From Stigmatella ashevillena (lineage in GTDB: Bacteria; Myxococcota; Myxococcia; Myxococcales; Myxococcaceae): a stretch of 64,000 nucleotides of DNA. The DNA is taken from NCBI RefSeq assembly GCF_028368975.1, contig NZ_JAQNDM010000002.1:3962425-4026424 (forward strand). Reading direction: 5' to 3'. Each line of letters opens with the position of its first letter. Position 1 is the stretch's first letter. Made by a program: the position numbers and the translations under genes. Shown one piece after another: positions 21,873 to 51,814 of this stretch. The notes below the pieces were generated by a model, which saw only the letters and a program-made list of their open reading frames with translations, did no database searches and was not told the origin of the DNA.

Positions 21873-23678
21873 ATGCAGATCTCGTCCAAGACCCAGAAGC
21901 CGGCGCAGTCCTCCTCGCTGCCCACTGTGACACCGCCCGCCCCGGGCACCCTCTCCCAGACGGCCGCGCCCCAGGCGCAGAAGCCCGCCGCTGGCCTGAA
22001 CACCGCCTCGAGCTTCACCTCGACGCCCAAGGCCAAGGTGGCGCTGAGCGCGGAGCCCCAGAAGATCACGGGTCCCCTGGAGCTGAACAGCGCGCAGGCC
22101 CAGGCCGCCATCCAGAAGACGGTGGATTTCGTGCAGGAGAAGGCCAACCGGGGACTGGTGCCTGGCGTGGATGCCTCCCAGGCCCTGGCGCCCGTGTCCG
22201 TCGAGCACGACGCGCTGGGCATGACGCACGTGCGCATGGACCGGCAGCACGAGGGCGTGAAGGTCTTCGGCGAGCAGGTCATCGGCCACCTGGACCGCGA
22301 GGGCAAGGTGGAGAGCCTCACCGGCAATGTCGGCACGCTGGCCAAGGGCCTGGGCTCCGCGCCCACGAAGCTGTCGTCCCAGGACGCGCTGGCCCTGGCC
22401 CAGAAGCAGTTCGCGGGGAAGACGGACCGCGAGCCCACCTCCGAGCGCGTCATCTTCCAGGGCAAGGACGGCCAGTACCACGCCGCCTACCACGTGGAGC
22501 TCACCAACACCTCCGAGCTCAAGGCCGAGGATCGCCCGCAGCGGATGAACTACCTCATCGACGCCAACTCGGGCGAGATGCTCACCCAGTACAACCAGAT
22601 GGGCGGCATCGAGCTGCCCCAGGGCAAGGGCGCCGCCGCGGACCCGAAGGCGGGCACCTCCGCGAGCACGCCGAAAGCCTCCACGCCGGACACCCAGCCC
22701 GCCACGGGCAAGGCGGATGACACCACGCTCTACAGCGGCAAGGTGGACCTCTCCACTAAGAAGAACGCGGATGGCACCTACAGCCTGGAGGACAGCACGC
22801 GCGGCAAGGGCGTGGTGACGGTGGACGCGCAGAACAAGAGCCAGGCCGGCAAGGTGCTGCCCATCACCGACAAGAACGACGCGTGGGGCGAGTCCGCGGA
22901 TCCGACGCGCAACAAGTCCGCGGTGGATGCGCACTACGGCGCCGAGATGACGTACGACTTCCTCAAGGACGTGCTCGGCCGCGACTCGCTGGATGGCAAG
23001 GGCGAGAAGCTCGTCTCCAACGTGCACATCGGCACCAACTACGTGAACGCGTACTGGGACGGCAAGCAGATGAACTACGGCGATGGCGACGGCAAGCAGT
23101 CGGGCCCGCTCACCACGCTGGACATCGCAGGCCATGAGATTGCCCACGGCCTCACCGAGCGCACCGCCGGCCTCATCTATGACGGGGAGTCCGGCGGCCT
23201 GAACGAGGCGTTCAGCGACATCATGGGCACCGGCGTGGAGTGGTACGCCTCGCAGAAGAACAAGGCCGTCGAGTTCGACTGGAAGATGGGCGAGGACGCG
23301 TGGACGCCGGCCAACGGCACCGGGGACGCGCTGCGCTACATGGATGACCCGACGAAGGACGGCTACTCGATCGACAATTACAAGAACTACCCGAAGCAGA
23401 CCGAGGTGCACGGCTCCAGCGGCATCGCCAACAACGCCTTCTACCTGCTCGTCAACGGCGGCACCAATCGCACGTCCAAGGCCGAGGTGAAGGACGGCGT
23501 CGGCATGGAGAAGGGCCTCCAGGTGTACTACCGCGCCCTGGCCCACTACATGACGCCGAACACCACCTTCGCCCAGGCGCGCGAGGCCACCCTCAAGGCG
23601 GCCACGGACCTGTACGGCGCCAACTCCACCGAGGCCCAGAAGGTCGCCGAGAGCTGGAGCGCGGTGGGCGTGAACTGA
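21873..23678 (+). CDS. M4 (thermolysin-like) metalloprotease
   Basis: The 601-residue protein has the thermolysin-family zinc site AGHEIAHGLTE (His421, Glu422, His425) and the downstream GGLNEAFSDIMG (third ligand Glu445). Before it lie FTP/PepSY-like propeptide segments (about 100-240) and a Lys/Ala/Thr/Ser-rich linker (250-285). It ends in the usual M4 C-terminal helical domain, with the FYLLVNGGTN-type segment near 528-537. The N-terminus (MQISSKTQKPAQSSS) is polar and shows no signal peptide, which is unusual for a family that is normally secreted as a preproenzyme. A GGAG about 10 bases upstream supports the start. It probably degrades extracellular protein, but the export route is unclear. 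Confidence 0.9.
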   Translation: MQISSKTQKPAQSSSLPTVTPPAPGTLSQTAAPQAQKPAAGLNTASSFTSTPKAKVALSAEPQKITGPLELNSAQAQAAIQKTVDFVQEKANRGLVPGVDASQALAPVSVEHDALGMTHVRMDRQHEGVKVFGEQVIGHLDREGKVESLTGNVGTLAKGLGSAPTKLSSQDALALAQKQFAGKTDREPTSERVIFQGKDGQYHAAYHVELTNTSELKAEDRPQRMNYLIDANSGEMLTQYNQMGGIELPQGKGAAADPKAGTSASTPKASTPDTQPATGKADDTTLYSGKVDLSTKKNADGTYSLEDSTRGKGVVTVDAQNKSQAGKVLPITDKNDAWGESADPTRNKSAVDAHYGAEMTYDFLKDVLGRDSLDGKGEKLVSNVHIGTNYVNAYWDGKQMNYGDGDGKQSGPLTTLDIAGHEIAHGLTERTAGLIYDGESGGLNEAFSDIMGTGVEWYASQKNKAVEFDWKMGEDAWTPANGTGDALRYMDDPTKDGYSIDNYKNYPKQTEVHGSSGIANNAFYLLVNGGTNRTSKAEVKDGVGMEKGLQVYYRALAHYMTPNTTFAQAREATLKAATDLYGANSTEAQKVAESWSAVGVN

Positions 23679-26459: not shown

Positions 26460-29400
26460 TCACCCCTCCCAGGCCGCCAGCAGGGAGCGGACCCGCGCGT
26501 ACCGCTGGAGCAACCGCTCGCGGTGCGCGCTGAGCAGCACCATGAAGCCCACCACCATCAGCCCGAGCAGGGACAGGAACGCGGCCCCCATCCGGTGGTC
26601 CCGGATGCCGAAGCGCACCAGGTTGGCCACGACGCACGTCACCAGGAACGCGGAGCCCAGGTACACATAAGAGCGGATGCGCAGCGCGATGCCCGCCCCC
26701 ACGCCCAAGAGACACAGGCCCACGCACAGCAGCATCGCCTTCGCGTTGGGGAACATCAGGGGCTGCCAGGCACCGGCGACATAGATGATGGTCACCGCGA
26801 GGGCGCGCAGCCGCGCCAGGGTGTCGGCGGAGAGCGACTTGCGGAAGACGCTCAGCAGCACCAGCAGGGAGAGCCCCGCGGGGATGACATAGTACTGCGG
26901 CTCGCCCGCGCCGGCGCCCACCCACACGACGAGCAGCGCGGCGTTGAAGGCCACGGCGGAGGCCAGCGAGGCCGCCCCGCGCCGCGACGGATGCATGGCG
27001 AGCGCGGCGAAGTGTGCCGCATGTCCCACGAGCAGGGCCGCGGTGTAGGCCGACTCGCCCCACGGGGCGGTGAGCAACCCCACCAGGGGGAAGAGGAAGG
27101 CCCCCATCAAGGCGGGCTGACGGAAGGCGGCGAACCGCGAGCCCTCGCGCTGCACGAAGACGTAGAGTCCCGAGAAGAAGACACCGCCCACGAGGGCCAT
27201 GAGGCTGTCGGCCATGCCCAGCTGGTCCGCGCCCATGCCCAGCACTCTCGCGCTGAGGTAGCCCAGCACGGCGGCCACCTGCGCGCAGTACGCCGAGAGC
27301 ATGTCCTTCTCGGAGACCGCGCGGCGCACGAGCGTCACCAGCAACACGAAGAGGCCCAACCCCACCACGAGCCCTTCCCTCAGTGCCTCCTGGGCCCCAC
27401 TCAAAGGCACCAGCACCAGCCCCGAGAGCACCTCGAGGAACGCCAAGGCCGCCATGAGGTGGCCCACGGCCCGGCGGACCTTCTGTCCCGCCAAGCCAAA
27501 CGCCACGGAGGCCAGCACCGCCGTAAGCGCGCCGAGGTACGGGAGGATGAACACCTTGCCCCGGCCCGTGGAGAACACGACCCCCAGGTGCATCATCAGC
27601 ACATGGACGGCCACGAGCGTGGCAAGCCAACCCACCAGTTCGTACCCCCGGCGCCGGTGGACGAGGGTCCACGCGGCTCCCGCGGCCAGCGCGAAGCTCA
27701 GGGGCGTGCTCACGTGCCGCAAGCTGTGCAATCCACCGATGGCCAGGAGCGAGAGCATCCACCCCGCGTGATGCAGCGAATCGCCCACGCGAACGCCTCG
27801 CGCCTCCAGCCGTGTGCCCACCCAACACACCCCGAGCCCCACCGTGCCCAAGGCCACCGGCATCCACGCCAGGGGCATCGCCGCGACGAGCACCAGGCCC
27901 AGCGCGCCCGTGGCCCCATACGCCATCCCCTGCGACCGGGTGACCATGAGGAGGATCGCCGTCAATGCCGCCAGTCCCGCCACGCTCAGGGGCAGCACGC
28001 CCGGTCCCCGGTCCACCAGGAGGTACCCCACCACGCCCACGAGCGAGACCAGGCTGCCGACCCACAAGGGCTCACTCCAGGTGTCCTCCATCCGCGGGAA
28101 GACCTTCGCCGCCGCGGCCGAGAGGGCCCGCTGCACGCGGCCGGACTGGCACAGCGCGGACAGGAGCGCCGTGGCGAACGCCACCCCGGTGAAGACCAGC
28201 GCCGCCAGGGGCCTCACCTCGAGAAACCCATACCCCTCGCTTCGGCCCAGGGAAGCGAACGCCAGCGTGACCACCGCCACCGTCAACAGCCACCGCTCGG
28301 AGAGGAGGAACGCCGCCATGAGCAGCACCCCCGCCACCCCCACGATGGCGGCGGAAGACGGGGCGGAGAACATGGCGATCCCCGCGAGGAGGAACGCGCC
28401 CCAAGTCACACACGCGCGAAAGGCCAGGTCTGGCGCGCACCGGAAGAAGGCCCAGGCCCCCCGAGAGCGGTGGTGCTCGAACAGGCCCAGCGCCAACAGG
28501 ACTCCCGCGGCCGTGAACCGCGCTCCGGGGACGAAGGCGATCAACACCGCCGCCAGTCCCAGACGGAACGAAGGCTTGCTGCCCGGCAGGAGCGCCAGCG
28601 CCACGGCGAGCACGCAGATCGCCACCCCGGAGGCCCCGGACAACACCAGGCCACACCCCACCGCCGCGAAAGCGGCCTGTGTCCACCAGGACAAGGCCTG
28701 CCGGGCCCGTTGCTCCTGTCCCCCCAGCAGCGCCTGAGCCACGGCGGGGACGTGCTCCACGGCACGCACCATCAGGAGCATCAACAGGGGCAAGACCGGA
28801 GCGAAGGCAGGCGTCGGCTCGTAGAAGTACAAGACCACCCCCGTGAGCACCGGGGAGAACACGGCGAACATCGGCTGACGGTTGGCGCGCACCCACAGCA
28901 ACGGCAGCAGCGCCGTGCACGCGAGCAAGATCTCCACCTGGGACGTCATCCACCAGAACAGCAGGGAGATGCCCAGCACGCACAGGGCCGAGAGGCTGGC
29001 CGCGAGGGCGAAGCGCCGTCCCCCGGTCAGCACGTTCCTCACCGCCTGCGGCTCGTTCAGCAGCGCCAGCACGCTCAGGACGGCCGCCAAAAGCGCCAAT
29101 CCCCCCGGAACAGAAAACAAGGCCAGCGTGGCATAGGCGGCGGCGGCGACGACGCTCAAGGACGCCGGCAGCGCACGCGCCGTGAGCAGGGCCGCCAAGG
29201 CCGCGCCCAGCATCAAGCCCATGGGGGAGAGGGCAGGCCGCGACACCAGCGCTGTCGCGAAGGCGGCGGCGAGCGCAATGACCCCCGCCATGGTGGTGCT
29301 CGGGCTGCGTCCCCAACGCACAGCGGCCAGCGACGCACCCAAGGCCCAGAGGACAATGCCTCCCATGGCCATCGCGGGCGTCAGCCACGGCCAGGGCGCG

Positions 29401-31871
29401 AAGGGAATGCCCTCGCTCCACGGGGGCAGGAGCGCCAGCCCGGCCAACAAGACCGCCAGGGGCCGGCATCCCGGAAACACGCGCGAGGCCCAGGCCACGG
29501 CCGCCGCAGCGGCGAGAAGGATGACGCCCAGCACCGGCGTCTCCGCCCCCATCGCCACTCCCACCGCCAAGAGCGCATAGAGGATGCCCGGGATGCCCAG
29601 CAGCCGCATCCTGCCCCCGCGATCTCCCAGGAACACGAGCACCAGCGCCATGATGGCCATGGCGGGGGACACACCCTCCACCCTGTGCGTGAGGCTCGGA
29701 GAGAAGACCGCCGCGAGCTTGGGCACCGCCGCCGCGGCAGCGAAGCCCGCCAGCGCCAGGAGCCGGGGGTCCGCCAACGTCCACGCCGTCAGGAGCGCGG
29801 CACTCCCGGCCAACCCCATGCCCACGGCGGGCAGCACGCCCGGGGCCGAGGACACACCGGTGACGAAGCCCGCCAGCGCCAGGACGCCCACCGCCCCGCT
29901 GAAGAGGCGCGCCTGGACACCGGCCGTCCGGGAGACCAGCACCGCGAACACCAGCGCCACCCCACCACACAGAAGAGACGCGCCCTCGGAGCCGAAGAGG
30001 GCGTTGGCGGCCAGGGGAACCGCCAACATCAGGAGCGCCCCCACCCCGGAGAGATAGGTGCGCTCCAACCACAGGCCCCCGGCGACACACACCGCGGACA
30101 GCGCGAGCGCGCTCCAGAGTGCTGGACGCGAATCCGGCCCCAGGTGCGCCATGAGGACGAAGAGGAGGCTGGCCACGGCCGTGGAGCGCAGCAGCACCTC
30201 CGACACTCCCGCCGCTCGCGAGCCCACCTCTCGCCCCCCACGAGCGATCAGCCGGGACGCCAGGAGCACGCCCACGAGAACGAAGGGCAGCGCGGTCAGC
30301 GCCCCGAACTGGAACGGCAACGCCTCGGACGGCGGGTACCCCAGCCGGGCCTTGAGGGTCTCAATGAGGGCTTTGACAGCGCCCGGAACGAGCTGAGGGC
30401 TGGAGGCATAGACAAGGTAGGCACCGGCATAAGCAGGGTAGAGCCAGCGCAGCCGCGGAAGCGCTCCCTGGCCCAGCCAGTACATCGTCCACGTGAAGAC
30501 GGCCGCGGTGACGAAGAAGGCCGGCGCCGCGCCCGTCCCCGACAGCACGAGGCAGCCCACCTGCATCGCGGCCACCCCGAGGGCGAGCGGATCCGCCGCC
30601 TGCTGCGCCTCGAGCCGACGGAACGCCAGACACGTGGCCAGGAGGAAGGCGATGAACGGAGCGTAGGAGCCCAGCGCGGGAGGCGTTCCAGCGGCGGCGA
30701 GGGCCAGGTGCAGCCGGACCGAGAAGAGCGCGAGCAGGTAGAGCGGAGCGGTCAGCGCGAAAACGAGCGCGGTGCCCTGCCGCGGCTCGACCCCCGGCCG
30801 ACGCGAGAGGGCGAAGAAGAGCACACAGGGCAGCACGTTGAGCCACAGCGCGGACACGCCCAGCCGCGCGGCGAGGGGCGCCAAGCCCATCATCAGCGTG
30901 GTGCCCACCATGCCCGCCTGGATCCAGGGGCGCGAGGGCGCATCCATCGCCTCGGCGGGACGGCGGACCAGGAAGGCGGCGAAGGCGGACCAGGCCAGCA
31001 ACAGCGGCACGAGGAGCGCGGGGCTCACCCCATCAAGCCCCAGCGTCTCCCCCAACGGGAGCGTGCCACCCAGGGGACCCAGCGCGAGCCCCGCCAGCGG
31101 CGCCACGGCCGAGCCAATGAGACAGAGGATGCGCCCAGCACTCCGCAGCGCCTCACGGCGGGTCAGGAAGGCACCCCAGGTGGAGAAGCCCACGGAGTAG
31201 AACGCGGTCATCCCGAAGACCACGAGCGAGCGGGCCCCCGAGGTCATCCCCGCCCAGCTCTCGAAGACGAAATAGAGCGTGCCCGCGAGGATGAGGAACG
31301 CCCCGAGGAACCAGCCAATGCTCTCGTAGAGGAAGGGCCGCCAGATGCGGCTCCAGGGAGAGGCCTCCTCCACGAGGCGCGCGGTGAGGCTCCGCACGGG
31401 GGGCGCATCGAAGAGCGGATCGGGGGTGACCAGCGGCAGCGGGACTTCTTCCTCCTGGACGGGCTCCTGCGCCGCCACCTCCACGGGAGCAGGTTCAGGC
31501 GAAACCACGGCCATGGGCTCAGGCAAAGCCATGGGCTCGGGCTCAGACGAAGCCACGGCCACGGGCTCAGGCAAAGCCATGGGCTCCGGGGAGCTTTCGG
31601 GCGCGGGTGCCACCGGAGCCTCCTGGACCGGCTCCACCCCCGTCAGCAAGGAGAGCAGGATCCGGCTCTGCCGCTCGTAGCGCTCGACGAGGTACTTCCG
31701 CGCGCCCGAGGAGACCTCCAGGTCATCCCACTGGGGCACCTCATTGAGCAGGAAGCCAACGTGCTCCAGCTCCGCCTCCAAGGCTTCCCGGGGACGGACC
31801 ACCGTCACACTTCCACAGCGGACACACTGGAGGCCGAACAGACGCTCCTGCCGGCATTCGGGGCAGTACAT
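26460..31871 (-). CDS. giant multi-pass membrane protein with N-terminal zinc ribbon
   Basis: The 1,803-residue product begins with a four-cysteine zinc-ribbon motif, CPECRQERLFGLQCVRCG (residues 3-20), then a short helical region. A Pro/Glu-rich segment (about 105-150) repeats units like PEPMALPEP and VASSEPEP. From about residue 180 to the end, the protein is one long series of hydrophobic segments, with several dozen membrane spans by eye, separated by short Arg-containing loops. No transport or enzyme motif is recognised. Its start is about 210 bp from the LanKC start on the opposite strand; a shared regulatory region is possible, but a role in lanthipeptide export is speculation. Confidence 0.75.
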   Translation of the reverse strand: MYCPECRQERLFGLQCVRCGSVTVVRPREALEAELEHVGFLLNEVPQWDDLEVSSGARKYLVERYERQSRILLSLLTGVEPVQEAPVAPAPESSPEPMALPEPVAVASSEPEPMALPEPMAVVSPEPAPVEVAAQEPVQEEEVPLPLVTPDPLFDAPPVRSLTARLVEEASPWSRIWRPFLYESIGWFLGAFLILAGTLYFVFESWAGMTSGARSLVVFGMTAFYSVGFSTWGAFLTRREALRSAGRILCLIGSAVAPLAGLALGPLGGTLPLGETLGLDGVSPALLVPLLLAWSAFAAFLVRRPAEAMDAPSRPWIQAGMVGTTLMMGLAPLAARLGVSALWLNVLPCVLFFALSRRPGVEPRQGTALVFALTAPLYLLALFSVRLHLALAAAGTPPALGSYAPFIAFLLATCLAFRRLEAQQAADPLALGVAAMQVGCLVLSGTGAAPAFFVTAAVFTWTMYWLGQGALPRLRWLYPAYAGAYLVYASSPQLVPGAVKALIETLKARLGYPPSEALPFQFGALTALPFVLVGVLLASRLIARGGREVGSRAAGVSEVLLRSTAVASLLFVLMAHLGPDSRPALWSALALSAVCVAGGLWLERTYLSGVGALLMLAVPLAANALFGSEGASLLCGGVALVFAVLVSRTAGVQARLFSGAVGVLALAGFVTGVSSAPGVLPAVGMGLAGSAALLTAWTLADPRLLALAGFAAAAAVPKLAAVFSPSLTHRVEGVSPAMAIMALVLVFLGDRGGRMRLLGIPGILYALLAVGVAMGAETPVLGVILLAAAAAVAWASRVFPGCRPLAVLLAGLALLPPWSEGIPFAPWPWLTPAMAMGGIVLWALGASLAAVRWGRSPSTTMAGVIALAAAFATALVSRPALSPMGLMLGAALAALLTARALPASLSVVAAAAYATLALFSVPGGLALLAAVLSVLALLNEPQAVRNVLTGGRRFALAASLSALCVLGISLLFWWMTSQVEILLACTALLPLLWVRANRQPMFAVFSPVLTGVVLYFYEPTPAFAPVLPLLMLLMVRAVEHVPAVAQALLGGQEQRARQALSWWTQAAFAAVGCGLVLSGASGVAICVLAVALALLPGSKPSFRLGLAAVLIAFVPGARFTAAGVLLALGLFEHHRSRGAWAFFRCAPDLAFRACVTWGAFLLAGIAMFSAPSSAAIVGVAGVLLMAAFLLSERWLLTVAVVTLAFASLGRSEGYGFLEVRPLAALVFTGVAFATALLSALCQSGRVQRALSAAAAKVFPRMEDTWSEPLWVGSLVSLVGVVGYLLVDRGPGVLPLSVAGLAALTAILLMVTRSQGMAYGATGALGLVLVAAMPLAWMPVALGTVGLGVCWVGTRLEARGVRVGDSLHHAGWMLSLLAIGGLHSLRHVSTPLSFALAAGAAWTLVHRRRGYELVGWLATLVAVHVLMMHLGVVFSTGRGKVFILPYLGALTAVLASVAFGLAGQKVRRAVGHLMAALAFLEVLSGLVLVPLSGAQEALREGLVVGLGLFVLLVTLVRRAVSEKDMLSAYCAQVAAVLGYLSARVLGMGADQLGMADSLMALVGGVFFSGLYVFVQREGSRFAAFRQPALMGAFLFPLVGLLTAPWGESAYTAALLVGHAAHFAALAMHPSRRGAASLASAVAFNAALLVVWVGAGAGEPQYYVIPAGLSLLVLLSVFRKSLSADTLARLRALAVTIIYVAGAWQPLMFPNAKAMLLCVGLCLLGVGAGIALRIRSYVYLGSAFLVTCVVANLVRFGIRDHRMGAAFLSLLGLMVVGFMVLLSAHRERLLQRYARVRSLLAAWEG
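31500..31602 (-). repeat. coding repeats for PEPMALPEP-type units
   Basis: Within the large membrane protein gene, near-identical units such as catgggctcaggcaaagc (seen on the plus strand) recur, encoding Met-Ala-Leu-Pro-Glu-Pro-type repeats in the linker after the zinc ribbon. Copy number could vary between strains by slippage or recombination. Confidence 0.55.
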
Positions 31872-32081
31872 GAGGCAAGGACCTTAACAACTGCCGTGCC
31901 ACCCCGAAGCCCTTGAAGTCCCGGGCATTTGAGTCCTTCACCGCCCCGCTCCGTGCCACCCCCTCGACGCGGTGTGCAAGGAAGATGTGCACCGGGCTGC
32001 ACACCCTCGGCCTGCCTTGCGCAAAACGGGGCCTGTCCACCCCATGGTAGAGTGTGCCCTCCCCCCTCGCCCCCCCATCCC

Positions 32082-34733
32082 ATGCAAGGCATCGAGCGAC
32101 GCGCCAAGCGAGACATCTTCTTCTTCACCCTCACCGATCCGGAGCGCTACGAAAGTCTGGAGGACTACCGCGCTACCGGAACCGAGTTCCGGGACCTGGT
32201 CCGAGGCCTGCTCCCCGCCGGATGGAAGATGGACTACCGCCAGGGCACGTGGTGCCCGGTGTTCCCCCCCGAGGACAAGACGCCGGATGAAGGCTTCAAA
32301 ATTCACGCCTCGACGAAGCACGAGCATGCCCAGCAACTCCTGCGGGCCGTGGTTCCCCTCTTCGTGGAAGAGGGCATCGCCTTCAAGTTCGTGGTGGATG
32401 AAGACATCCTCGACTTCACCAACGAGAGCGCCCGGGGACGGGGTGGGTGCGGCAAGTTCATCACCGCCTACCCGGTGGACGTTCCCCAACTGCGGCGGCT
32501 CATGGAACGCCTCCATGAAGCCACCCGGGGCCTGACGGGCCCCTACATCCTCTCGGACCAGCGCTACAAGGACAGTAAGACACTCTTCTACCGGTACGGC
32601 AGCTTCAAGAACCGGTTCCTGCTCAATGTCTTCGGAGAACAGGAACCGTACATGCGCGCGCCGGATGGCCGTCTCGTCCCAGACGAGCGCCAGGCCTTCT
32701 TCGTGCTACCCGAGGGCATCGAGGATCCCTTCCCGCAGGAGCCCGAGGAAGACTCCGGAGAGCTCATCCTCCAGGGGCGTTACAAGGTCACCAGCGCGCT
32801 GAGCATGTCCGCCAAGGGCGGCGTCTATGCCGGGGAGGACCTTCAGACCGGGGCCCAGGTGGTCATCAAGGAGGCCCGCCCGCTCATCAATCGCAACCGG
32901 CGCAGCCCCCATGACGCGGTGGCATGCCTGCACAACGAGTACCGAATCCTCTCGTTGCTTGCAGGCACGGGGGTTGCCCCGCAACCCATCGCCTTCTTCC
33001 AAGAGTGGGAGCACAGCTTCCTGGTCATGGAATACGTGAAGGGCGTGCCCCTGTCATCGCTCCGGGCCTTCGAGGACTTCTCGCTGATGCTGATGACGGA
33101 CATCCGCGATGAGGACGTCCAACGCTTCGCCCAGGAGTATCTCCTGATCGCCCGCCAGCTCATCCTGGGCGTCCGGGCCATCCATGCCCAGGGCGTCGTC
33201 ATTCAGGATGTCGCGCCCCAGAACATCTTGTTTGATCTGGAGCAGGGCAAGGTCACCTTCATCGACTTCGAGAGCGCCTGGAGCGAGCACCTCGGTGAGC
33301 AGGCCGTCGTGGCGCCCATCCGGACACTCGGCTTTGGCGACCACCAGTGGAACGGACAGCGCCCCACGATGGAGGAGGATCAGAAAGCCCTGGGGCGACT
33401 GTTGAGCAATCTGATCTTCCCCATCACCCCTCTGTTGTCCCTGGCCCCCGGCCACTGGGAGCCCTTCCTGCGGGAACTGGCCCAGGAGAAAGGCCTCCCC
33501 GCGCCCCTGCTCTCGCTGGTCCTGGGAACCACCGGAAGCGCCGCGGAGGTGGACCGGCTCCTGGAGAACGCCGAGCGCCAAGCGAAGGAAGCCCGGGCCG
33601 CCCCGCGCCGCCCTCCCCAACGAACCGCGGAACACCATCAGGAGGCAGTGCGGCGAATCGCCCGCTACATCGGGGATCAGCTCGAAAGCCCCCGGGGGCC
33701 GCTCGATCTGCCCACTGACTACCGGCGCGCCGCCACCAACCCCCTCAATGTTGCTTACGGGGCCGCAGGCGTGGCCATGTTCCTCCACCGTGCCCAGGGC
33801 ACGGTGCCCACGGCATTGAGGGAGGCGCTCCTCCGGGAAGCCGCCACGGCCGACAATGAGCATTACCCCCCTGGCCTCTATGTGGGTACGGCAGGCATTG
33901 CCTGGACGCTGCTGGAGCTGGGCCACCCGCAGGAAGCCGAACAGCTCCTGGAGAGGGCGAGCCACTCCCCGCTCCTGTTCAAGAACGCCGACCTCTTCTT
34001 CGGAAGCGCCGGCTACGGACTCACCCAGCTCTTCTTTCACCAGCGCCTGGGGCAGGAGAAGTACCTGGCGCGCGCGCTCCAGGCCTTTGAAGGCTTGAAG
34101 ACAAACCTCCAGGAAGCCCAGGGCCTGTATTTCTACCCCAACGAGGGGGCCGTCTATCACGGCCTCGCCCACGGGGCCTCGGGCATCGCGTACTTCCTCC
34201 TGCGGCTCTTCCAGGCCACGGGCCAGAAAGAAGTCCTCTCTTACGCTCGCGGGCTGATGAACTTCGAGCTCGCCCAGGCCCAGAAGCTGAACGGGCAGCT
34301 CGTCTGGCAGCGCTCCTCTCACGACGCAGTGCATTCGCCCTACTGGCGCGTGGGCAGCGCGGGAATCGGCAGCGTGCTGCTGCGCTTTCATGCTGCGCTG
34401 GGAGACCCCCAGTACCTCGACACAGCGCGCCAAATCGCCCACTACCTGGAAGGCAAATACAGCGTTTTTCCAGGCAATCTCTCGGGCATGGCAGGATTGG
34501 GAAACTTCCTCATCGATATGTACAAGGCCTCCCGCGAGGAGAAATACCGCGAGGAAGCGTTCCGGTTCGCGGACCGGATCATGCTCTACGCGCTCGAGCG
34601 AGAGGGGGGCCTCGTCTTCCCGGGGGAGGAGCTGATTCGCATCTCCACCGACTTTGGGACTGGCTCCGCGGGGATCGGCCTGTTCCTCGACCGGCTCCTC
34701 AAACAGGATGGCATTCCCTATCTGGACGATTAG
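32082..34733 (+). CDS. class III lanthipeptide synthetase (LanKC)
   Basis: The 883-residue protein has the three-domain plan of class III lanthipeptide synthetases. The N-terminal lyase part (1-225) has the LanKC patterns GFKIHASTKHEHAQQLL, GGCGKFITAYP and LSDQRYKDSKTLFYRYGSF. A kinase domain (230-480) has Lys263 in VIKEARP, Glu286 in HNEYRIL, DVAPQN (Asp376, Asn381) and Asp395 in FIDFESAW. A LanC-like cyclase domain (about 540-883) has five GxxG helical-barrel repeats (FGSAGYG, HGASGIA, VGSAGIG, SGMAGLG, TGSAGIG). The Cys/His zinc ligands of class I, II and IV cyclases are absent, which fits class III. It should phosphorylate Ser/Thr of the precursor, eliminate phosphate and close lanthionine or labionin rings. 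The internal ATG is chosen because the family homology starts there; no Shine-Dalgarno is evident. The precursor gene lies 89 bases downstream. Confidence 0.93.
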   Translation: MQGIERRAKRDIFFFTLTDPERYESLEDYRATGTEFRDLVRGLLPAGWKMDYRQGTWCPVFPPEDKTPDEGFKIHASTKHEHAQQLLRAVVPLFVEEGIAFKFVVDEDILDFTNESARGRGGCGKFITAYPVDVPQLRRLMERLHEATRGLTGPYILSDQRYKDSKTLFYRYGSFKNRFLLNVFGEQEPYMRAPDGRLVPDERQAFFVLPEGIEDPFPQEPEEDSGELILQGRYKVTSALSMSAKGGVYAGEDLQTGAQVVIKEARPLINRNRRSPHDAVACLHNEYRILSLLAGTGVAPQPIAFFQEWEHSFLVMEYVKGVPLSSLRAFEDFSLMLMTDIRDEDVQRFAQEYLLIARQLILGVRAIHAQGVVIQDVAPQNILFDLEQGKVTFIDFESAWSEHLGEQAVVAPIRTLGFGDHQWNGQRPTMEEDQKALGRLLSNLIFPITPLLSLAPGHWEPFLRELAQEKGLPAPLLSLVLGTTGSAAEVDRLLENAERQAKEARAAPRRPPQRTAEHHQEAVRRIARYIGDQLESPRGPLDLPTDYRRAATNPLNVAYGAAGVAMFLHRAQGTVPTALREALLREAATADNEHYPPGLYVGTAGIAWTLLELGHPQEAEQLLERASHSPLLFKNADLFFGSAGYGLTQLFFHQRLGQEKYLARALQAFEGLKTNLQEAQGLYFYPNEGAVYHGLAHGASGIAYFLLRLFQATGQKEVLSYARGLMNFELAQAQKLNGQLVWQRSSHDAVHSPYWRVGSAGIGSVLLRFHAALGDPQYLDTARQIAHYLEGKYSVFPGNLSGMAGLGNFLIDMYKASREEKYREEAFRFADRIMLYALEREGGLVFPGEELIRISTDFGTGSAGIGLFLDRLLKQDGIPYLDD

Positions 34734-34779
34734 TGCCTCACGGTACTTGTTTGAAACACAAAGGCCGCTAAACTGGCGA

Positions 34780-34799
34780 TTGACAGGATCCCCCCTGTC
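34780..34799 (+). promoter_or_regulatory. hairpin and -35-like TTGACA between LanKC and the precursor gene
   Basis: GACAGG (34782-34787) and CCTGTC (34794-34799) form a 6-bp stem with a 6-base loop in the 89-base gap. The same stretch contains a perfect TTGACA (34780-34785), but no convincing -10 box follows at 16-18 bases. It could be a separate weak promoter, or an RNA structure that sets the level of precursor relative to enzyme. Confidence 0.3.
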
Positions 34800-34822
34800 C
34801 TCAGCATGGAACGGTGAGACTC

Positions 34823-34933
34823 ATGAAGAAAGTGCTCGCGCTGCAGCAGCTCGCCCCCAAGTCCGACTTCGATCCACTTTCTCTCTCCTCCCTCGTGAGC
34901 ATCTCCTGTTGCAAAGGAACCCAGCCCAAGTAG
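34823..34933 (+). CDS. class III lanthipeptide precursor peptide (LanA)
   Basis: The gene encodes 36 residues and is preceded by GGTGAG five bases before the ATG. The leader starts MKKVLALQQL; VLALQ (residues 4-8) matches the hydrophobic x-x-x-Leu-Gln helix that LanKC enzymes recognise in class III leaders (LFDLQ in SapB, for example). The core is Ser/Cys-rich: SLSSLVSISCC spans residues 20-30, with Ser23, Ser26 and Cys29 in the SxxSxxC spacing that forms labionin. Cys30, Thr33 and other Ser offer further sites. The tail is Lys31 to Lys36. It directly follows LanKC and is closed by a strong terminator, so assignment as its substrate is well supported. The leader/core boundary and actual rings are unknown. 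Confidence 0.88.
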   Translation: MKKVLALQQLAPKSDFDPLSLSSLVSISCCKGTQPK

Positions 34934-34947
34934 TACGCGGCTGGGAG

Positions 34948-34975
34948 CCCTCCTGGCCTCCGCCAGGAGGGTTTT
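34948..34975 (+). terminator. intrinsic terminator after the lanthipeptide precursor gene
   Basis: CCCTCCTGGC (34948-34957) and GCCAGGAGGG (34962-34971) form a perfect 10-bp stem with a 4-base loop, directly followed by TTTT (34972-34975). It lies 14 bases after the precursor stop and just before the end of the convergent argB gene. This is the clearest Rho-independent terminator in the window. Confidence 0.9.
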
Positions 34976-34982
34976 CGCGCCG

Positions 34983-35834
34983 TCAGCGGGTCCGCAGAAA
35001 CGCCGTACCGAAGCTCCCCGCCCCCTGCGCTTCACCGAGCAGCGCGTGCGCGGGCGAGATGCCGACGATGTGGATGGCTTCGATGCCCTCCTCCAACATG
35101 GAGAGGCTCTCTTCCACCTTCGGAATCATCCCTCCCTGAATCACTCCCGAGGCGATCTTCTCCTGGGCCTCCGCGGGGGTCAGGGTGGGAATGCGGGTGG
35201 AGGGGTCGTTCTTGTCGGCGAGCACGCCCGGCACGTTGGACACGAGGAACAGCTTGGCGGCCCGGAGCTTCGCGGCGACCCGGGTGGCCACCGTGTCCGC
35301 ATTGATGTTGAACACCTGCCCCTGCGCGTCTCCCGAGAGCGAGCCCAGCACCGGCACGAGGCCCGCCTCGGACAGGCGCTCGAAGAGCGCGGTGTTCACG
35401 TCCGTCACGTCCCCCACGAGCCCCAAGTCAATCGGCTCGGGCCCCGCGCCCGTGATGACCTTGGCAGGGCGCTTGCGCGCGTCGATGAGGCCTGCGGAGA
35501 CGCCGGTGGTGCACAGCGCGGGCACCCCGGCCAGACGGAACGCGGCGGCGACATCCACGGACACCTGGCCCGCGAGCGTCATCTTCACCACCTCGAGGGT
35601 GGCCTCGTCGGTGACGCGGCGCCCCGCCACCATGCGCGGCGTGAGGCCCAGCTTGTTCGTCAGCTCGGTGGCCTGCGGCCCACCTCCGTGGATGACGGCC
35701 ACCCGCACGCCCGCATCGAGGAAGGCCCGCACCGCGGCCCCCACGCTGCCCGCAAGCTTCGGCCGATCCGAGGCCAGCTCGCCGCCAATCTTCACGACGA
35801 ACCAGCGGCCCTTGAAAGCGCTCAGCCCGCTCAT
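34983..35834 (-). CDS. argB: acetylglutamate kinase ArgB
   Basis: ArgB phosphorylates N-acetyl-L-glutamate, the second step of arginine synthesis. The 283-residue protein shows VVKIGGELA (residues 13-21) for phosphate binding, VIHGGGPQATELTNKLGL for acetylglutamate binding, FNINADTVA, and the closing KVEESLSMLEEGIEAIHIVG. Its ATG overlaps the argC stop (ATGA), so the two are translationally coupled as argCB. The open frame runs further upstream into argC, but homology to ArgB starts at MSGLSAFKGRWFVVKIGG. Confidence 0.95.
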   Translation of the reverse strand: MSGLSAFKGRWFVVKIGGELASDRPKLAGSVGAAVRAFLDAGVRVAVIHGGGPQATELTNKLGLTPRMVAGRRVTDEATLEVVKMTLAGQVSVDVAAAFRLAGVPALCTTGVSAGLIDARKRPAKVITGAGPEPIDLGLVGDVTDVNTALFERLSEAGLVPVLGSLSGDAQGQVFNINADTVATRVAAKLRAAKLFLVSNVPGVLADKNDPSTRIPTLTPAEAQEKIASGVIQGGMIPKVEESLSMLEEGIEAIHIVGISPAHALLGEAQGAGSFGTAFLRTR

Positions 35835-50698: not shown

Positions 50699-50896
50699 GG
50701 CGCCACCTTATAATGACGGGCTGCTCTCTCAGCCGAATCCTTCGAAAAAACCTCACGAAGTCTTCCAACAATCCTTGGGAAGTGCCCTGGGGGAGCGCTG
50801 TTCTGGTCTTGTGATGAACGAGAGGGCCATGATGGCTTGCGTTCGTCCCGCGCCGTTGCATGTTGCGAGTACGGTTTTTTCTCAGAGAGAGGACAC

Positions 50897-51814
50897 ATGA
50901 AAGGGAGCTTCTTCAAGCGCATCACGCTGTTCCTGCTGACCAACCTGGCGGTGGTGGCGGCGCTGGGAATCGTCGCCAGGCTGCTGGGCGTGGAGAGCTT
51001 CCTCGCCCGTCAGGGCGCGGGGCTGAACCTGCCTGCCCTGCTCATCATGTCGGCGGTGATGGGCTTTGCCGGCTCGATCATCTCGCTGCTGATCTCCAAG
51101 CCGATGGCCAAGTGGAGCACGGGGGCCCAGGTCGTCACCGCGCCGCGCACGGACGCCGAGCGGTGGCTCGTGGGCACGGTGCAGCGGCTGGCGCGGGACG
51201 CGGGCATCGGGATGCCCGAGGTGGCGGTCTACGACAGCCCGGACATGAACGCCTTCGCGACGGGAGCGTTCCGCAACAGCGCGCTGGTGGCGGTGTCCAC
51301 GGGCCTGCTCCACGGCATGGAGCGGGACGAGGTGGAGGCGGTGCTGGGCCATGAGGTGGCCCACGTGGCCAACGGCGACATGGTGACGCTCTCGCTGCTT
51401 CAGGGCGTGCTCAACACCTTCGTCATCTTCCTGAGCCGGGTGGTGGGCTTCCTGGTGGACCGGTTCCTCAACCGCTCGGAGGACGGCGAGGAGAGCACTG
51501 GCACGGGACCGGGCTACTTCCTCACCAGCATCGTGCTGCAGATCATCTTCGGCATTGGCGCCAGCCTCATCGTGGCCTGGTTCAGCCGCCGACGGGAGTT
51601 CCGCGCGGACGTGGGCGGCGCCCAGTTGGTGGACCCCAACGCGATGGCCCGCGCGCTGAACCGGCTGCGCATGCAGCAGGGGGAGCCGAGCCTGCTGCCG
51701 TCCAGCATGCGGGCCTTCGGCATCCGCGGGGGGGGCGTGATGGCCCTCTTCTCGAGCCACCCGCCGCTCGAGGAGCGCATCCAGCGCCTGACCGACGGCA
51801 CTTGGCGGAACTGA
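50897..51814 (+). CDS. htpX: membrane zinc metalloprotease HtpX
   Basis: HtpX is an M48 inner-membrane protease that degrades misfolded membrane proteins in stress. The 305-residue protein has N-terminal spans (about 10-28 and 45-67), the zinc motif [12 protein letters not shown] (His152, Glu153, His156), two more spans, and [14 protein letters not shown] with the third ligand Glu. The C-terminus ([15 protein letters not shown]) is typical. The ATG at 50897 is preferred because GAGAGAGGA lies just upstream and the family starts there. Confidence 0.95.

Follow-up and report, generated by a model that had tools for sequence, protein, structure and literature searches.

The core motif of class III lanthipeptides is defined as Ser/Thr and Cys in the arrangement SxxSx(2-5)C (PMC8960859, PMC11251773). 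In the structure of the synthetase ThurKC, the leader is bound as a helix via M-22, V-19, L-18, L-16, and Q-15 (PMC10604976). Depending on the class III peptide, motifs of the Sx2Sx3C type lead to lanthionine or to labionin (PMC7268733), and in many class III systems the leader protease is encoded at an unlinked site (PMC8960859; PMC10885120). The family is large, with 2304 class III precursors described, 55% of them unannotated (PMC7268733). Among myxobacteria, boletupeptin from Melittangium boletus is cited in PMC12328550 as a class III lanthipeptide made heterologously.

The window analyzed here is a 64,000-nucleotide stretch of Stigmatella ashevillena DNA, for which a first-pass annotation had proposed a short class III precursor gene next to a LanKC gene. 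The best explanation of the open reading frame (ORF) at positions 34823 to 34933 is that it encodes the precursor (LanA) of this LanKC, a reading to which we assign a probability of approximately 95% from sequence comparisons. The neighboring LanKC very probably turns the encoded peptide into a ring-containing natural product.

The LanKC gene and the short ORF downstream of it

The predicted LanKC protein contains a RamC_N (lyase), a Pkinase (Ser/Thr kinase), and a LANC_like (cyclase) domain, and its ATG start matches a conserved N-terminus, MxGIERRA. It scores 762 bits with the class III LanKC model NF038151 (cut-off, 575) and 574 bits with the class IV model NF038150, below the cut-off of 650. 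By these model scores and Pfam domains, it is predicted to be a class III rather than a class IV synthetase. NF038151 passes its cut-off once in the whole 10.95-Mb genome, at the gene adjoining the short ORF. Seven of the eight ThurKC lyase residues are kept in the window LanKC (K65, H67, K94, K117, D152, R163, and R191), the sole change being that of Lys108 to Ser116. The ThurKC kinase residues K257 and E279 are kept as well, as are the leader-contact residues R112, Y148, Y243, E258, W302, and F306.

The short ORF starts after a gap of 89 bases from the LanKC stop and is translated as MKKVLALQQLAPKSDFDPLSLSSLVSISCCKGTQPK, 36 residues followed by TAG, exactly as annotated at first pass. The VLALQ stretch described for its leader is present (V4-L-A-L-Q8), and so are S23-x-x-S26-x-x-C29, the second Cys (C30), and the late Thr (T33) of its core. 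The ribosome-binding site had been called good; a GGTGA sequence is indeed present and is also conserved in congener G037, but it is fair rather than strong.

Table 1. Features of the LanKC locus, in window coordinates.
Feature	Position	Strand	Basis
LanKC, predicted class III lanthionine synthetase, 883 aa	32082..34733	+	NF038151 and Pfam
Ribosome-binding site GGTGA of the short ORF	34813..34817	+	5 nt 5' of ATG
Putative precursor peptide gene (LanA), 36 aa	34823..34933	+	NF038154, conservation, leave-out model
Putative leader recognition helix M1-L10, MKKVLALQQL	34823..34852	+	ThurA1 register; relatives
Candidate ring motif Ser23-Cys30, SLVSISCC	34889..34912	+	SxxSxxC with Cys29 or SxxSxxxC with Cys30
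Hairpin and T-run, probable terminator for LanKC and the precursor as a unit	34948..34975	+	Fold; G037
Segment missing from congeners G036 and G038 (LanKC, precursor, hairpin)	about 32005..34979	.	

The region from 34930 to 34985 folds at -38.6 kcal/mol (z score, -5.8), and the stem of the strong hairpin within it is mostly conserved in G037. The hairpin is followed by argB, which is convergent to the short ORF. No consensus sigma-70 promoter was found, and myxobacterial promoters often depart from the consensus scanned. Likewise, no protease or transporter gene was recognized among the nearest neighbors of the pair. Two peptidases encoded at a distance, one of family M4 (21873-23678) and one of family M48 (50837-51814), have no evident link to it. 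The 13 M16 peptidase-domain matches in the genome indicate only that candidate leader proteases exist, because control genomes have such matches too.

On the other side of LanKC, positions 26460 to 31871 of the reverse strand encode an 1803-residue hydrophobic protein, probably a multi-pass membrane protein, which is conserved in three congeners. It has no Pfam match over the cut-off.

The short ORF as a candidate precursor gene

With the class III precursor model NF038154 (lanthi_III_a; cut-off, 22), the 36-residue protein scores 23.8 bits, and the ORF scores 22.1 bits in the genome scan. The match spans residues 1 to 30 and the whole model, and the protein score lies 1.8 bits over the curated cut-off. 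In the 10.95-Mb genome, the cut-off is passed only at this ORF, beside the sole LanKC. A leave-out model, for which the window peptide was excluded and 20 precursors from elsewhere were aligned, gives an E value of 1.5e-4 at 34823-34933 in a genome search, and the next place has an E value of 2.95. In simulated sequence (first-order Markov, same composition), short ORFs that combine the leader motif with a core resembling SxxSx(2-5)C occur at 0.03 per 64 kb.

These numbers bear on the alternative that the frame is open by chance, with the true precursor of LanKC encoded elsewhere. The downstream location, unusual in that relatives have the precursor upstream, would fit such a scenario. However, neither of the two models finds a further class III-type precursor in the genome, a search upstream of the window LanKC found no second precursor, and the simulation expects far fewer than one comparable ORF per window. 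Together with the purely synonymous divergence described below, the simulation and the whole-genome searches led us to reject a chance ORF, which we regard as extremely improbable.

The leader of the proposed precursor has M1, V4, L5, L7, and Q8 at the same spacing as M-22, V-19, L-18, L-16, and Q-15 of ThurA1, and the M1-L10 register also fits ThurA1 L-13. The shared spacing supports the ATG at position 34823 as the start codon.

Congener G037 has the same gene arrangement, with a LanKC that is 95% identical and an identical precursor peptide. Including the stop codon, the two ORFs differ at six nucleotides, and all six differences are synonymous, an outcome with a probability of about 3e-4 if changes were random. 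This divergence indicates that the putative precursor is under protein-level constraint. The lack of a conserved frame beside LanKC in related genomes had been named at first pass as grounds for dropping the assignment; the frame is conserved. Congeners G036 and G038 have an empty site, where argB directly adjoins the large membrane-protein gene. Since exactly the segment with LanKC, the precursor, and the hairpin is missing there, LanKC and the precursor are gained or lost together. The distribution among the congeners is compatible both with a gain of this segment in one lineage and with its loss in the other.

The pair could also be a decaying or silent remnant that yields no product. Its presence is patchy within the genus, and both the missing consensus promoter and the lack of a recognized export or protease gene beside it would agree with decay. 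On the other hand, LanKC is intact and its catalytic residues are conserved, the precursor appears constrained at the protein level, and a promoter off the scanned consensus is common in myxobacteria. We regard a remnant as very unlikely.

LanKC loci in the family and in other phyla

The comparison set comprised 19 further LanKC loci from genomes of the family and a broader set of 80 loci from other groups, including other phyla. A short ORF with a leader of the same type is found at 18 of the 19 family loci. At 17 of these, an LxLQ-type leader ORF lies 84 to 287 bases upstream of LanKC; it lies downstream at one locus (L060), and a short leader ORF was not seen at another (L059). In the broader set, about 65 of the 80 loci have a leader ORF, nearly always upstream. 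Among the loci examined, only the window, G037, and L060 have the precursor downstream of LanKC. Leader positions L5, L7, and Q8 are invariant across 20 relatives. In the LanKC tree, the window and G037 sequences form the sister group of a well-supported clade of myxobacterial LanKCs, from Sorangium, Polyangium, and members of the family, whose precursors sit upstream of LanKC.

The following observations count against the precursor assignment: the NF038154 score is barely over the cut-off, the gene is 3' of LanKC where relatives nearly always have it 5', ThurKC lyase Lys108 is replaced by Ser116, and no protease or transporter gene was recognized beside the pair. The class III precursor identity proposed at first pass is supported by the NF038154 match, linkage to the sole LanKC, synonymous-only divergence, joint presence and absence, and a leader shared across phyla.

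The survey also returned split class III synthetases at seven loci in six genomes (L056, L057, and L062 to L066; genomes G015, G028, G063, G021, G030, and, twice, G029), some of them single-contig. Here, two ORFs that adjoin or overlap slightly encode a lyase-kinase of about 500 aa and a LanC-like cyclase of about 390 aa in place of one LanKC, and a class III precursor is located upstream of them. In the tree, the fused LanKCs of L054 and L080 are placed within or next to the group of split synthetases. A literature search on split class III synthetases gave no evident report. In the precursors of L060 (7179-9788 and downstream, L038:4288-4494), L058, and L067, a Gly-Gly-type segment, such as LDQVVGG, directly precedes the VLxLQ helix, which suggests that the leader is a composite of two recognition elements. 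Four non-actinobacterial loci (L075, L103, L105, and L107) each have five to six tandem precursors upstream of LanKC, some of them identical.

Predicted ring formation and comparison with known systems

The amphipathic N-terminal helix (M1, V4, L5, L7, and Q8) would dock on the kinase/lyase groove of LanKC. The enzyme would then phosphorylate Ser/Thr residues of the core and eliminate the phosphate to give dehydro-residues, to which Cys29 and/or Cys30 could add at dehydrated Ser26 or Ser23 (Michael addition), yielding lanthionine or labionin. A host protease encoded elsewhere would cut off the leader. Binding, modification, ring type, and cleavage, as well as export and any bioactivity, are steps that we infer for the peptide.

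The core matches SxxSx(2-5)C, either as S23-x-x-S26-x-x-C29 or, with C30, as SxxSxxxC. The motif described at first pass as forming labionin is present, but labionin is only one candidate outcome: Cys30 gives the SxxSxxxC spacing of the closest myxobacterial relatives, and some such motifs yield lanthionine. The sister-clade cores are mostly SxxSxxxC (e.g., SALSLLLC and SGLSLLAC), and in a by-eye alignment to them, Cys30 rather than Cys29 is the matching Cys; SxxSxxC is also widespread among the LanKC loci examined (e.g., STISNHC). Labionin in the product, with Ser23 and Ser26 pairing with Cys29 or Cys30, is plausible. We give somewhat under even odds to a LanKC product without labionin, carrying one or more simple lanthionines or dehydro-residues plus one lanthionine. 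The formation of lanthionine from Sx2Sx3C-type motifs in some class III peptides (PMC7268733) favors it, and six Ser/Thr residues and two adjacent Cys in the core permit several ring patterns. Clean SxxSxxxC motifs, one or two per core and with the spacing of labionin peptides, are retained in the closest myxobacterial relatives and speak suggestively against it.

A more far-reaching and rather unlikely reading takes the pair as a minimal two-gene cassette, a synthetase followed by one precursor, gained or lost as a unit. It would make a compact SxxSxxCC peptide, in which the vicinal Cys give a ring pattern that is new among characterized class III products, and would rely on unlinked host functions for maturation and export.

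As a substrate-enzyme pair, LanKC and its proposed precursor are well supported, come from a group with few characterized class III products, and supply exact masses for product searches. The calculated [M+H]+ of the full-length precursor is 3861.069, which up to seven dehydrations (18.011 each) would lower to 3734.995. For a core beginning at S20, the calculated values are 1737.887 unmodified and 1629.824 after loss of six H2O, and for one beginning at S23, they are 1450.739 and, after loss of four H2O, 1378.697. They also illustrate that short class III precursors can be recognized by leader register and LanKC linkage.

Compared with known systems, the window peptide shares the VLxLQ leader and Ser/Cys core of the NF038154 class III precursors, whereas its core sequence is its own. 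With ThurA1/ThurKC (andalusicin, Bacillus thuringiensis), it shares the leader register MxxVLxLQxL (PMC10604976), and the lyase, kinase, and leader-pocket residues are largely common to both enzymes, apart from Lys108. However, ThurA1 is one of seven precursors in a cluster with a methyltransferase, whereas the window has one precursor and no tailoring gene. The nearest LanKC relatives (49 to 54% identical), at Sorangium, Polyangium, and family loci (L068-L071 and L049-L055), resemble the window in their VLALQ or ILSLQ leaders and SxxSxxxC-type cores; they differ in having the precursor 5' of LanKC and usually one or two SxxSxxxC motifs without vicinal Cys. In Saccharicrinis aurantiacus (Bacteroidota, L072), the core LSSLISLACC is close to LSSLVSISCC of the window, whereas the precursor is upstream and the LanKC is 38% identical. 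With boletupeptin, as cited in PMC12328550, the window peptide has its predicted class III type and its myxobacterial origin in common. The novelty claimed for the product at first pass was thus overrated: because NCBIfam models, the 2304 precursors (PMC7268733), and boletupeptin as cited (PMC12328550) precede it, the peptide joins a large, already modeled family. The pair adds a convincing but ordinary new case to a well-known class of peptides and is not a new type of system.
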